Of a stretch of 64,000 nt of DNA, positions 5,380 through 29,220 are shown in pieces. Every line of letters starts with the position of its first letter. Position 1 is the stretch's first letter. Under the pieces are notes generated by a model. That model was given only the letters and a program-made list of their open reading frames with translations. It searched no databases and was not told the DNA's origin. This stretch comes from Haliclystus octoradiatus (taxonomy: Eukaryota; Cnidaria; Staurozoa; Stauromedusae; Haliclystidae): contig OU744452.1 of assembly GCA_916610825.1 (NCBI GenBank), positions 7,410,021-7,474,020 on the forward strand. The letters run 5' to 3'. Both the position numbers and the translations under genes were made by a program.

Positions 5380-5412
5380 TAAATAGAGGAGTCAAAGACT
5401 ACACATTTTGTT

Positions 5413-5456
5413 ACTGTAGCTTGAAGTTTCACGCTTTATTGCGATCATCAGACAGT
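5413..5456 (-). ncRNA. Hammerhead-like motif, copy 1 left arm, probably broken
   Basis: This is the same layout as the right arm read on the - strand, with CTGATGA, helix II and GAAAC intact. The base that should pair with the first A of helix III is C here instead of U, which breaks a core pair. It is likely inactive. Confidence 0.45.
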
Positions 5457-5479
5457 TAAAACTAGACTGTCTAGTTTTA

Positions 5480-5523
5480 ACTGTCTGATGATCGCAATAA
5501 AGCGTGAAACTTCAAGTTACAGT
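5480..5523 (+). ncRNA. Hammerhead ribozyme-like motif (type I layout), copy 1 right arm
   Basis: Helix I is ACTGT (5480-5484) with ACAGT (5519-5523). The core CTGATGA (5485-5491) is followed by helix II CGC/GCG with a 6-nt loop, then GAA (5506-5508). Helix III is a short ACT/AGT hairpin starting with the A at 5509 and ending with the T at 5517. The predicted cleavage residue is the T at 5518. This order matches a minimal type I hammerhead. The base pair next to the core in helix II is U-U rather than the usual G-C, so activity is uncertain. Confidence 0.6.
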
Positions 5524-5610
5524 AACAAAATGTGTAGTCTTTGACTCCTCTATTTATATTTACAGCTCTGTCAACAGACATTGAGCACTGTTTTACTGCT
5601 ATTGGATAAT

Positions 5611-6274
5611 ATATTATTATTATTATTATTATTATTATTATTATTATTATTATTATTATTATTATTATTATTATTATTATTATTATTATTATTATTATTA
5701 TTATTATTATTATTATTATTATTATTATTATTATTATTATTATTATTATTATTATTATTATTATTATTATTATTATTATTATTATTATTATTATTATTAT
5801 TATTATTATTATTATTATTATTATTATTATTATTATTATTATTATTATTATTATTATTATTATTATTATTATTATTATTATTATTATTATTATTATTATT
5901 ATTATTATTATTATTATTATTATTATTATTATTATTATTATTATTATTATTATTATTATTATTATTATTATTATTATTATTATTATTATTATTATTATTA
6001 TTATTATTATTATTATTATTATTATTATTATTATTATTATTATTATTATTATTATTATTATTATTATTATTATTATTATTATTATTATTATTATTATTAT
6101 TATTATTATTATTATTATTATTATTATTATTATTATTATTATTATTATTATTATTATTATTATTATTATTATTATTATTATTATTATTATTATTATTATT
6201 ATTATTATTATTATTATTATTATTATTATTATTATTATTATTATTATTATTATTATTATTATTATTATTATTAT
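5611..6274. repeat. (ATT)n trinucleotide expansion, about 660 bp
   Basis: An uninterrupted ATT/TTA repeat of about 220 units. It lies directly downstream of the foldback body and probably grew from that element's ATT tail. The long poly-Leu ORF across it is an artefact. The true length in the genome may differ because such arrays are hard to assemble. Confidence 0.97.
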
Positions 6275-6372
6275 GTGAGGTTTAACGATTGTCTTGTAGA
6301 TTTTGAAGTTTATGGTTAAAATTCAAAAAGTTTTTGATTCGCACAATTGAATAAAATGCTTCTTTGCAATTT

Positions 6373-25155: not shown

Positions 25156-26224
25156 CAACATTATATCTATGAGCAGAGATGCTTTTAAACGTGAATTTGA
25201 TCTTTGAAATTCGATGTGATGATTTACGAGCGAGTTCATTTATATGCCTAGAGTTCTAAAACTTTTTGTTCCTATATTGCTAGAAGAGTGGATAGCAAGT
25301 TTAGGGGGTTAACAGGGGATAGATAGTCTGCGAGATAGATAGAAATGTCCATTATGTGATAACAGACAGAGAAATTCTCACTCAAAATGCATCTTGAATG
25401 CGTTTGGATTGCCTTTGGTTCATTTGAAGAATTCGAATAACTTGTACTGTGCATGCCGGTTTAGTTAGGGCTCTGTAGTTAGAAATGTGGATTGCAAAAT
25501 ATTATTCTATACAACCTATACTTACAATGAACAATGAACAATGAACAGAAACGATTATATAGTAGACATAACATACGTTTAACAGAAGCTTTACATGTCT
25601 TCTTTCGAGTTCGAAATATACAATAGCAGATTGTATTCGATAAAATTTACAATTAATTTGTTCGTGAAAATTGGAATACTGAGTGCGATAGGTGATCCTT
25701 TTGGTCTTTGAATGCATCTCATCAAATAGGAAATCATATGCAGATTCATAGACTTTGCGTTGAGTGTATCATTAGTATTGTATAAAGTCACACCAATTCA
25801 AGATAAGACAACCACATTAACTAGGTCAGGCATACACAATAGCCATTTCTAGACATAAAAATACAATAAATTAGTAGCAAATCAGTAATTTTGATTTAGT
25901 CTGAGAATTCAATTTTGAGTATATAATAACAATCAAATGTAACGATTTATCTGATAATCTTGGTTACTAACAAGTCATCGCCATAGCCGTTCTCAACAGG
26001 AATACGATAGGCACATGTACAGAGCGGTGCGCTATCCAAGTCAAGCCAAAGTGACTTGTAGAACCTTTACCCTGTAGTAACCCGTGACTTGCCTGGATCA
26101 CTAAAGCGGGCTGGGTCAGGAAGGGTTGGTCATATCATCAAACATCTGCCAAAACACGTTGCTAGCTTATCACGTTAGTGGATATTAGTAAATACTAAAT
26201 GTAGATATATAATTTATGGATTGT
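25156..26224. other. Non-coding stretch
   Basis: AT-rich. Apart from a short run of AATGAAC repeats at about 25526-25548, I see nothing I can name. Confidence 0.5.
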
Positions 26225-26264
26225 TTGCTACTCAAAGTTTCACACCAAGACGATCATCAGGCAA
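26225..26264 (-). ncRNA. Hammerhead ribozyme-like motif, copy 2 left arm
   Basis: On the - strand helix I is TTGC with GCAA, the core is CTGATGA, helix II is CGTC/GGTG with two G-U pairs, then GAA. Helix III is ACT-TTG-AGT and the residue at the cleavage position is A. All core residues are present. As in the other copies, U-U replaces the usual pair next to the core in helix II. Confidence 0.6.
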
Positions 26265-26286
26265 TCTGTTCAATCGATTGAATGGA

Positions 26287-26326
26287 TTGCTTGATGATCG
26301 CCTTGGCGTGAAACTTTGAGTAGCAA
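26287..26326 (+). ncRNA. Hammerhead-like motif, copy 2 right arm, core C changed
   Basis: The same architecture with helix II CGCC/GGCG. The core reads TTGATGA rather than CTGATGA; the lost C is essential in hammerheads, so this arm is probably inactive. Confidence 0.5.
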
Positions 26327-26345
26327 ACATGACTGTCTGATTTTT

Positions 26346-29040
26346 GACTTCATATTTTATATCTTATATAAAGCTCTGCTGTATAGCATTGGGCCCTATG
26401 TGTAAGACAATTTACAACACATAGCTCATGGATTGTAACTTTTGAGAATACTTGATATTATAATATATCAAATATAGACATAAGTATAGTAACGTAAAAG
26501 ATTAATAACGCGGTATTATGACACAAGAATATGCTTTTCATTTCATATATTAAGTTTAAAATTCGAAAGTTATGATAAGATGTTGAGACCTCATAATTTC
26601 AATTTTATAAACTGCAGTAACCTTTGGCTAATTTGGCATCAGTTCAGAGACAATTCACAAAGCAATTGTTCATAGATAAGTCATTATCTTATGTTAATCG
26701 GGGGTTAATCGTATCTCTATGAGTTATAGATATTAAAGCGTTAAAGCTTCACCGACTTCATATAGATCTCATTTATTATTTTAAAATTATAAGTGGCTAA
26801 TTGGCTATGTAGATCTTGATAGAAATTGGTAGAATTGAGGTCCCTCGCTGAAATTCGGGAAGGCATCGCCATTTATTTCCTTCGAGGGCCATCAAAGCAT
26901 ATAGCCTGCTGCCTTGACACAAAGCAATCGAAAAGCATCCTTTTTTTTCAACATTCTTTTCTCCTTTTTCGAGGGTAAAAAACATCTGAGGTATCTTTTT
27001 TCTGATCTGAAACTTTCTTATTGTCATTCTGTCATATTTCTATTTAAAGGAGCAACATTGACCGGTAGTCACTACGGGCTCGGCTTGCATTAAGACTAGC
27101 GTAAAATCAATGATCAATGTCAGTCATGGCTTCAAATTTCAAGTTTCAGGATGGTAGAGCACTGGTCATTTTTACCCCTTTAAATAACCCCGTCAAAGCG
27201 CAATGGAAATTACCCCCGGTATTGGAAACTCCCGGAAACTCGTACACATAACTTAAAATTATATCTAACGAAATCATACACATAGGGAGGACGGCATATA
27301 CTATCTAACACCAGCATAGTCGTCAAATCTCTAAGAAAAAAGTAACCTTTTTCAACTGATATTTAGCGGGACTGGAAGAAATCTAGAATCAATCGGTAAC
27401 TAACTTATGAAAAAAAAGAAAAGTAAACACCTGAACTAGTCCCAGGCTCTTTTGTCAATATTTTAGTAGGTCATCTAGAAACACAAACGTGTAAATTATG
27501 TTTCAACCGAATTTCAAAATTCTTATTGCATCTGGCACCTATATTTACTACACACCTACCGCGAGCTTAATAAATAAAATGAAGAATAGAAAAGTTATTA
27601 GAACAAATGTTAGTCGAACGAAAACGTTAACTGCCACGTGCAGTTTCAAATTTGACTAACTTTCTTATATATAGTTATGTTAGTTACTGAATGATTCTGG
27701 ATCATTTCCTATTCCGTTATATACCAGTTGAAAAGGTCACTTTTTGGGTAAATATTTAACGACTATGCTTCTAACACCGCATTATAATTTACCATTATTT
27801 ATTATACAGCTGACGTGCATATAGTTACAGACATATACATCGAAAGATTCGTCTCGTGAAATTAACCGCAAATGACGTCATTTTAAAAATTGTATTTCTT
27901 TGTACGTGACGAAGGTACTACTTCATAATATATTATACTCTCAAATGGTCTATCTGATTTAATGAACTGCTTCAGACTGTATATCCCTTATAGAAATAAT
28001 CACTAAAACAACAGTATACATCTATATACACACAACAACAAAACTCAATAAATTGAATATCCAATTCCTTGCGGAGATATTGAGATTATGAGATACTCTG
28101 CAGTTATTCCTATAATTAGTAAAATTTCATATAAACTCACAGCCGTAAATACTACGGGATGATGTGGGGGTGTGACCCCCCCCCAATAAAAATTTTGAGG
28201 CAAATTTCGGGCAATTTTGAGATGAATAAATACAGTATTACAGTATGGTATTACAATATTGAAGCTCTCAAATATGCAAATGTCATGCCTTTTTAGGATG
28301 AAATGCCTATTTCGTCGGACAAAATTGACAAATAACCCTTTTCAGAAGCATTTGGTTACGGCCGTATACATAGTGTTGCTCAACTTTTCTCTATGGGTGG
28401 CTACTTTTTACTGGAAAAGCGTGTTAATGATAATTACCAGCTCTATAACTCTGGACAATAAATTATTTAGTTCATAAAATATGTCACAGCTTAATCTCAG
28501 CTAATAGATCATAGCATAGAATTATAAATTTATAATACAGTGTTAAATGATATAGACATATAACTCTTTTTAACAAAAGATAAAGTTCACTTAAACGTTA
28601 TTAGATACTTCTATAATATGTGACTTCAAAACAGTCATTTAACGGAAAACTTAAGATTTGAAGTACCAATTTACTAGGCTTGAATATATATATATCCTTT
28701 CTTGATTAAACCGCGGGATATACAAAAATACTAATAATAGTTATATACATAGCAGGGAATAAATTTCAATCAAATTATTTTCAAACGTAGCTCGGTTATA
28801 AACAAATCTGAGGCTTACCAGTGAATCCGTTCTCAGTGTGAAGCGTCCACACGCTTTCAGATTGCAGTTGAGTTAAGTTACATTTATTATTGATTTAGCT
28901 AACTAATGTATCCTTGATGTTAATAACAAATTCAAAAACTATTTAGAACATTTTCAATTCTATAATTCCATCAAAATATCCGTGATTTTCGACTAAACTT
29001 GGATCTATTCTTGCATAAATATATAGATAGTTATACATAA
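26346..29040. other. Gene-poor AT-rich stretch
   Basis: I see no gene. A C-run with TGGGGGTGTGACC at 28166-28188 and short ORFs (for example 26797-27027 on the - strand) have no family features. Confidence 0.5.
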
Positions 29041-29220
29041 GGATGGTATATACATAGCATCAACTGTCTGATGATCGCACACTGCGTGAAACTATTGTAA
29101 CAGAAATTAAGAATGAGTTTTCTTTGACTCAGTCACCATCCTTATGTATTACGGCTCTGTCAATGTTTAATCGGTATTGAGCACTATCACATCTGACGAT
29201 AGATAAATCTATCTTTATTA
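29041..29220 (+). mobile_element. Hammerhead element family, copy 3
   Basis: It shares ACTGTCTGATGATCGC and GCGTGAAACT with copy 1. It also shares the downstream TTTGACTC, ACGGCTCTGTCAA and ATTGAGCACT. Here only one strand carries the motif, without the long palindrome. An inverted AGGATGGT/ACCATCCT lies at its sides. Confidence 0.7.
29064..29103 (+). ncRNA. Hammerhead ribozyme-like motif, copy 3
   Basis: Helix I is CTGT with ACAG. The core CTGATGA is at 29068-29074. Helix II is CGCA/TGCG with a CAC loop, then GAA at 29088-29090. Helix III is AC/GT with a TATT loop, and the cleavage-position residue is A at 29099. Helix II differs in sequence from copies 1 and 2 but still pairs. Confidence 0.6.

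Follow-up and report, generated by a model that had tools for sequence, protein, structure and literature searches.

We analysed a window of 64,000 nucleotides (nt) from the staurozoan cnidarian Haliclystus octoradiatus (assembly GCA_916610825.1, contig OU744452.1, positions 7,410,021 to 7,474,020 of the forward strand), in which three loci carry hammerhead ribozyme motifs. We consider it likely that at these three places the 5' leader of Penelope-like retrotransposons has been inserted and, jointly with this, that the shape of the copies fits reverse transcription primed at two ends, on two sites of the RNA (A and B), with products that meet where the RNA has its 5' end, more closely than it fits the self-priming proposed in print. 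What is new is the layout of the palindromes, nearly all of which have one arm that ends at A, another that ends at B and a single tail, with inner ends missing from incomplete arms; minimal hammerheads and inverted end repeats are already known in Penelope-like elements.

An earlier note on this DNA had placed five hammerhead-like motifs at the three loci, and all five were found where it had placed them. The type I core, CUGANGA ... GAAA ... UH, is present with three helices. A covariance model, R1, was trained on the genome's own motifs, grouped in 20 families, and its strong matches in the window are exactly these five motifs; its training set includes the plus-strand motif of copy 1 (5477-5526) and also the family of the copy 3 motif.

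5477..5526, plus strand: copy 1 hammerhead, intact; R1 68.7 bits, E 5e-19 (a training sequence); predicted cut after 5518
5410..5459, minus strand: copy 1 hammerhead, position 16.1 mutated from U to C; R1 58.3 bits, E 1.1e-15
26283..26330, plus strand: copy 2 hammerhead, C3 changed to U (TTGATGA at 26291); R1 54.7 bits, E 1.5e-14
26221..26268, minus strand: copy 2 hammerhead; R1 50.6 bits, E 2.9e-13; predicted cut after 26229
29060..29107, plus strand: copy 3 hammerhead; R1 50 bits, E 4.4e-13 (family in the training set); predicted cut after 29099

As had also been claimed, two of the loci are palindromes with a ribozyme on each strand, copy 1 at 5378-5558 and copy 2 at 26222-26329, and in each of them one arm lacks a core base (U16.1 to C on the minus strand of copy 1, CTGATGA to TTGATGA on the plus strand of copy 2). 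The cut positions proposed at that time, 5518, 26229 on the minus strand and 29099, are consistent with the standard hammerhead fold, from which they are predicted. Weak R1 matches were obtained at 29352-29396 (E 0.0015), 10436-10475 (E 0.16) and 13362-13411 (E 0.29); the first of these (20 bits) lies just downstream of copy 3 and has no intact CTGATGA. MicroRNA matches at copy 1 were dismissed, as they are expected of long perfect hairpins.

The motifs are abundant in the genome, which comprises 262 Mb in 33 contigs. The core pattern CTGATGANNGN{3,18}CNNGAAACT gave 1889 + 1884 = 3,773 matches on the two strands, against 1 + 0 in the reversed control, and the CTGAAGA form of the core gave 852 + 835 = 1,687 matches against 1 + 6 = 7; both forms together make more than 5,400 exact cores. 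Because these counts far exceed those of the reversed controls, the motifs are not chance occurrences. Hammerhead families of the CTGAAGA type are found genome-wide (e.g. L058, L068 and L102, where L-numbers denote collected genomic loci outside the window); some are head-to-head, and some have G and C at positions 10.1-11.1.

To the window and the collected genomic loci belong 107 distinct hammerheads, of which 92 have a helix III of the form ACT-N(1-6)-AGT-H and were grouped into 20 families, while 15 were dropped, their helix III not fitting the regular expression. Covariation was tested with one representative per family and 500 shuffles. Over the 20 families 94% of the cells are paired, and both the covariation score and the percentage paired lie above all 500 shuffles. 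Cells changed on both sides of a pair number 21, against 7.2 ± 2.7 in the shuffles, none of which reached as many, and 0-5 in the slid controls. The two-sided changes fall in five pairs, three in helix I and two in helix II. The search pattern fixes the core and one helix II pair and leaves helix I and the rest of helix II free; therefore that pair and the core are uninformative, as is helix III, which is invariant. Thus the covariation that the earlier note had read from a few copies holds for helices I and II over the 20 families, with two of five measures at the level of the shuffles: further pair types (10 against 9.0 shuffled, 146 of 500 as high) and pairs with two-sided change (5 against 3.6, 92 of 500 as high). 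Judged from these sequences, the hammerheads are real and their structure appears to be under selection.

By canonical standards they are weak hammerheads. The closing pair of a hammerhead is R10.1-Y11.1; here the U-U next to the core, pointed out earlier, occupies 10.1-11.1 in 16 of the 20 families, with G and C in some CTGAAGA copies, and 15 of the 20 have A-A or U-U as the fifth helix I pair. This weakness would probably explain the lack of any Rfam match above cut-off. Searched against the whole window, no Rfam family attained its gathering score, a result that counts against the motifs being hammerheads. At a lax threshold RF02275 (HH9) gave 21.7 bits, at the plus-strand hammerhead of copy 1, and 16.6 bits, both at the first locus only and against a gathering score of 52, and no hammerhead family matched in 26100-29300, where the two other loci lie. 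RF00008 had no match in the genome, in a search that was equally silent in its control genomes.

The copy-3 family, which is dispersed, looks young, the best 40 of 637 candidates being 92-100% alike to copy 3, and longer copies of it run on upstream into an open reading frame (ORF). The layout of the element is seen in the tandem array L070, whose unit of 2,525 base pairs (bp) holds, in order, TATATTTTTCATT (beginning 26 nt before CTGATGA), the hammerhead, site A, site B, the first ATG and a 734-amino-acid open frame, followed by the next unit. Its leader reads as an initiator-like (C/T)ATT site, a minimal type I hammerhead, site A, a tail, site B and the ORF; we infer that the (C/T)ATT site serves as transcription start, with a promoter role. 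The open frame contains FDIENFYPSIS, YRDDG, KSYIGLT...FKARYTQHKSTF and a CNCRDRDTCPLENRC cluster of cysteines, after which stands GIIYKA...KSYIGLTEDTFKARYTQHKSTF. FDIENFYPSIS and YRDDG we take to be reverse-transcriptase motifs, and GIIYKA...KSYIGLTEDTFKARYTQHKSTF presumably is the GIY-YIG motif of Penelope-like elements. A protein search with the C-terminal part gave at least 149 matches (148 of 3,301 candidates were scored), many of them in open frames of 721-743 amino acids and, in one array, at a tandem spacing of 2,516 bp.

Three results count against this assignment: Pfam returned no family for the 734-amino-acid ORF at E 0.1 and no reverse transcriptase at E 10; at lax E values it gave no GIY-YIG domain, only unrelated matches below cut-off; and the window holds no piece of the ORF. 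A search of the PDB with the same frame found no relative (best E 2). Because neither Pfam nor the PDB gives a relative, the assignment rests on motifs and layout. Tandem units with direct and inverted pseudo-long terminal repeats (pLTRs) and an optional 3' tail are both present, as in Penelope-like elements, and by the motifs, the layout and the parallel with the Anolis and Adineta elements discussed below we read the element as Penelope-like. The copies do not qualify as metazoan retrozymes, being palindromes, single pieces or parts of a 2.5-kb unit with an ORF. The lead toward Penelope-like elements in the earlier note appears to have been right. Its hammerheads, by sequence and fold, and its covariation stand as well; its idea of the palindrome as a new type of carrier does not, these being, on our reading, inserted 5' pieces of Penelope-like elements, whose inverted end repeats with an optional tail are described in the accessible text of PMC3846280.

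The layout of the inserted pieces was determined in a positional sample, which was drawn from the first 100 places matching the core pattern, all on contig C1: 30 as loci and the other 70 within 50 regions, of which the sample takes in 20 plus 12 shorter stretches. An inverted partner was counted if it lay no more than 350 nt away across a gap of up to 160 nt, which places palindromes with wider gaps (such as L043, L082 and L092) outside the count. The sample comprises 71 hammerheads, 34 of them with an inverted partner, in 26 distinct palindromes. Copies stop either at site A, about 72 nt past CTGATGA, or at site B, from which site A is separated by a tail of some 53-74 nt (GCTCTG...GAGCAC). 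In the 26 palindromes the homology between the arms ends at +59 to +94 from CTGATGA, apart from one at +140 with an internal duplication; past site A one arm continues with the tail, whereas target DNA follows directly on the other. Exactly one tail was recognized by regular expression in 22 of the 26, and by eye on the flanks in 25, the remaining one (L059) having a partial tail on one side. Apparent two-tail cases from the regular expression (L095, L097 and L102) were rejected on reading the flanks as chance matches in target DNA. A tRNA-like sequence (GGAGGATTAGCTC...), possibly a short interspersed nuclear element, stands beside the insertions L029 and L097.

The same layout is seen in the families of the window copies. 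Among the best 40 of 1,701 candidates for the copy-1 family, all of which bear a tail, 17, counting copy 1 itself, stand next to an inverted arm, which ends in every case at query position 90-94, that is, at site A, and none is paired with a second tail. Among the best 40 of 637 for the copy-3 family, the matches run through query position 201 (29225 in the window) and 15 inverted partner arms stop at 120-127 (29144-29151), at or just before site A; two of these 15 look like one duplicated locus. None of 33 automatically detected hammerhead pairs clearly joins two families; there are a few chance matches, and L093 is ambiguous. The parts of the window copies are as follows.

5378..5467, minus strand: copy 1, tail-less inverted arm, outer end at site A; 90-nt inverted repeat, 99%
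5469..5558, plus strand: copy 1, direct arm, reaching site A from around the inferred 5' end of the RNA; by inverted repeat and arm-end counts
5559..5611, plus strand: copy 1, tail (GCTCTG...GAGCAC) linking sites A and B; its end is approximate, as it runs into (TAT)n
26216..26224, plus strand: copy 2, left target duplication ATGGATTGT, 9 bp; direct reading, same bases at 26428-26436
26222..26275, minus strand: copy 2, tail-less arm; 54-nt inverted repeat, 91%, adjoining the duplication
26276..26427, plus strand: copy 2, tail-bearing arm and tail, GCTCTG at about 26373; sequence reading and inverted repeat
26428..26436, plus strand: copy 2, right target duplication, 9 bp; direct reading
29020..29035, plus strand: copy 3, left target duplication TATATAGATAGTTATA, 16 bp; direct reading, same bases at 29222-29237
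29030..29047, minus strand: copy 3, tail-less arm, very short, which begins at site A and overlaps the target duplication; 18-nt inverted repeat
29152..29225, plus strand: copy 3, tail linking sites A and B, with hairpin GATAGATAAATCTATC; from genomic copies
29222..29237, plus strand: copy 3, right target duplication, 16 bp; direct reading

Copy 1 is a palindrome of 181 bp (5378-5558) with 90-nt arms, 99% complementary and 1 nt apart, and copy 2 one of 108 bp (26222-26329) with 54-nt arms that are 91% complementary. Copy 3 has a single hammerhead and is also a foldback, 29030-29047 being an inverted copy of 29135-29152 (18 nt, 94%). At copy 1 the target duplication is unreadable, because the copy sits in (TTA)n. 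An uninterrupted (TAT)n array of 221 units (5612-6274) directly follows copy 1, and many other genomic copies likewise lie within TTA or TA repeats.

In the mechanism that we propose, the protein of the element would cut both strands of the target, and each target 3' end would prime reverse transcription, one at site A and one at site B. Both primings would probably take place on the same RNA, which is the least secure step. The two complementary DNAs (cDNAs) would run toward the 5' end of the RNA, where their 3' ends would then be joined. The product would be a head-to-head palindrome with one tail and a target duplication, and with a hammerhead on each strand if both cDNAs pass it. The pairing of A with B is nearly strict, which suggests one RNA with two occupied sites. 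That two-ended target priming runs on one RNA to its capped 5' end, the one-tailed palindrome being the primary product of transposition, is in our estimate an even bet.

The ends of the arms bear on this mechanism. They were analysed in 33 palindromes of two leader families, taken from 50 listed (63 counted) after leaving out 12 of a third leader family, one with a variant leader, one with an unknown leader and three near-identical repeats. At the inner ends, 53 of 66 arms stop 0 to +4 nt from the A of (C/T)ATT, which in longer copies directly follows a T-run; the base at which most full arms stop is probably the transcription start. The central spacers often contain short repeats of leader sequence and, by their look, resemble end-joining with templated insertions. 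Where an arm is incomplete, its outer end is kept and its inner end is missing, as in copy 3 (18 nt), L008, L010, L035, L037, L077 and L094, and in copy-1-family partner arms covering query positions 23-94 and 30-90. An asymmetry pattern searched in the genome had three matches, and in all three the full arm starts 0 to +5 from the start site. In long palindromes the distance between the arm ends, measured by alignment, is 0 nt in L062, 13 in L065, 18 in L064 and 29 in L069. A shared 17-nt centre of the long palindromes L061-L069 was rejected, the coordinates being only those of the two arms of L064 on its relatives.

These ends also bear on self-priming, in which a single strand would fold back at the 5' end and serve as its own template, giving a palindrome, and which the accessible text of PMC3846280 (Arkhipova 2013) proposes on an antisense template. 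Tight palindrome centres with short spacers are frequent, as self-priming would give, and the arm ends of four of the six long palindromes lie within 29 nt of each other. However, growth outward from the fold predicts missing outer ends, whereas the incomplete arms keep the end at site A and lose the inner part, and self-priming alone gives no reason for the second arm to stop at site A. Because the incomplete arms keep the outer and not the inner end, we disfavour self-priming and hold it to be improbable. A later deletion at the centre is also disfavoured, because it would need to end, in every case, at the other arm's start site.

Two-ended priming could also have used two different RNA molecules, by which arms of unequal length are easily made; we give this a slightly better chance than self-priming, although still a low one. 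The nearly strict pairing of A with B would be unexpected if the RNAs were independent, and in four long palindromes the ends of the two arms differ by no more than 29 nt and are remote from all known ends. That no clear pair joins two families points the same way, although a cis preference could also explain it and L093 is ambiguous. Family divergence is too low for a comparison of arms within and between insertions to separate one RNA from two.

Target duplications were sought in 34 distinct palindromes, of which 16 lie in simple repeats and 18 could be judged. In 10 of these 18, a 9-19-nt match adjoins site A and recurs after the tail, against 16 of 304 mismatched left and right pairs; at least these ten look like single events, because the duplications join the outer ends. 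Together with the short inverted repeats and the AT-rich target, the duplications would also suit a foldback transposon moving as DNA, of the kind of miniature inverted-repeat transposable elements, that carries hammerheads by chance. Such an element is very improbable: the outer ends are fixed and the inner ends variable, longer copies continue into an ORF of reverse-transcriptase type, and the arms stop at an initiator-like site.

Several observations weigh against two-ended priming on one RNA. No inverted partner lies near 37 of the 71 hammerheads of the sample or near 23 of the 40 tail-bearing copies of the copy-1 family, and 8 of the 18 judged palindromes have no convincing target duplication. 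One head-to-head pair with a tail on both sides, about 560 nt apart, lies inside the L070 tandem array, and L040 contains tail-less head-to-head arms 384 nt apart, which we read as two insertions. The tail-less arm of copy 2 is an exception in that its outer end lies upstream of site A; a later loss of its outer part was considered and rejected, the 9-bp target duplication adjoining the arm. The arms of the long palindromes L066 and L068 end 438 and 1,282 nt apart, and the evidence of the six long palindromes is mixed, four speaking for a shared template end and two for unequal arms. Among the 33 palindromes no arm extends upstream of (C/T)ATT, where a gap in the pattern would hide long extensions in the copy-1 family. 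Finally, the accessible text of PMC11167929, on the Anolis Penelope-like enzyme, reports a start site that is no different between the strands.

The hammerhead lies between the inferred transcription start and both sites at which reverse transcription would start, and therefore a cut RNA would lose its leader. In the copy-1 family 27 palindromes are centred at the start, against one whose two arms both stop at the cut; when the anchor is widened, six have their centre close to the cut, and one of these is apparently flush with it. For the copy-3 family, a search pattern that begins at the cut base gave three palindromes that stop at the cut, whereas 13 of those in the arm-end analysis stop at the start or close to it. 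Uncut templates thus appear to prevail in the copy-1 family, which was counted most closely, and a small fraction of templates may be cut. A peak of arm ends at the cut was not established, the patterns that gave the three cases and the one beginning at the cut base; in the positional sample partner-arm ends spread from -26 to +43 around it, with L055 and L033 exact. Any action of the hammerhead would be on the RNA, either ahead of the cDNA step or alongside it.

It is also conceivable, but in our opinion unlikely, that the motifs are inactive relics whose covariation is only inherited. The U-U at 10.1-11.1 and the 3-bp helix III are what one would expect of relics, copy-1-family palindromes come mostly from uncut templates, two of five covariation measures do not rise above the shuffles, and the Anolis motif is inactive without protein, as the accessible text of PMC11167929 has it. 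Against this stand the two-sided changes at five pairs between families, with 21 cells where the shuffles give 7.2, and the intact cores of the best-scoring copies, which are 92-100% alike (the best 40 of 637 and 40 of 1,701).

Minimal type I hammerheads of Penelope-like elements were reportedly described by Cervera and De la Pena in 2014. The portions available of PMC6155905 and PMC7229834 cite that work for them, and the latter gives more than 6000 type I motifs, minimal and canonical together, for Acropora millepora. Like those minimal hammerheads as presented there, the motifs found here lie in end repeats and are without the usual helix III and loop contacts; here U-U is found at 10.1-11.1 in 16 of 20 families, and the motif stands between an inferred start and two sites of reverse-transcription start mapped from genomic copies.

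Among known systems we compared PAc, the Poseidon element of Anolis carolinensis. According to the accessible text of PMC11167929, PAc has a hammerhead near the 5' end, an optional tail between two internal start sites of reverse transcription, AT-rich targets and tandem copies, and its enzyme cuts both target strands and extends them, starting in vitro at the two internal RNA sites. PAc differs in that its hammerhead overlaps the start of the ORF and reverse transcription starts inside the ORF, whereas here both sites lie before the first ATG. A term search in that text found neither 'palindrom' nor 'hairpin'. The Penelope families of Adineta vaga share with the present element direct and inverted pLTRs, head-to-head palindromes with a tail on one arm, target duplications (8-10 bp there) and TATA and initiator (Inr)-like sequences (PMC3846280, accessible text); they differ in their proposed self-priming and few copies, and the word hammerhead does not occur in that text. 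Metazoan retrozymes, in what is available of PMC7229834, have type I hammerheads, retroelement character and low GC in common with the copies described here, but consist of small repeats in tandem, make the canonical loop contacts and have circular RNAs, whereas here an element with an ORF and palindromic pieces are found. In the open-licence literature searched, two-ended priming of this kind was not found.

The window has other features. An inverted duplication at 2610-4635 comprises part of a non-LTR (long terminal repeat) reverse transcriptase, with arms of 514, 340 and 145 nt that are 97-99% alike. A BEL/Pao-type retrotransposon (17269-21792) has an open frame of 1507 amino acids with Peptidase_A17, RVT_1 and an integrase zinc domain. 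Two tandem arrays, 35636-35941 and 37868-38165, have a similar unit of 74-79 bp, a tandem satellite of about 4.5 kb (48609-53123) has periods near 195 and 406 bp, and a strong GC skew extends over the 48-52 kb stretch.

On the question of how Penelope-like elements integrate, and why their ends form inverted pairs with an optional tail, the accessible text of PMC11167929 leaves the steps after the start of reverse transcription to be shown, and an older answer was self-priming (PMC3846280). The thousands of hammerhead-marked copies in this genome make the question countable, since two-ended priming and self-priming predict opposite missing ends; the palindrome count is worth following, and so is the question of which end the incomplete arms lack. 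The hammerhead seems to be selected and yet not needed for making the inserted template, in agreement with the Anolis mutants. If our reading is true, genomes of this kind would keep base-exact maps of the sites where transcription and reverse transcription start, and the few palindromes that stop at the hammerhead cut (four found, in two families) would be traces of a cut RNA template.

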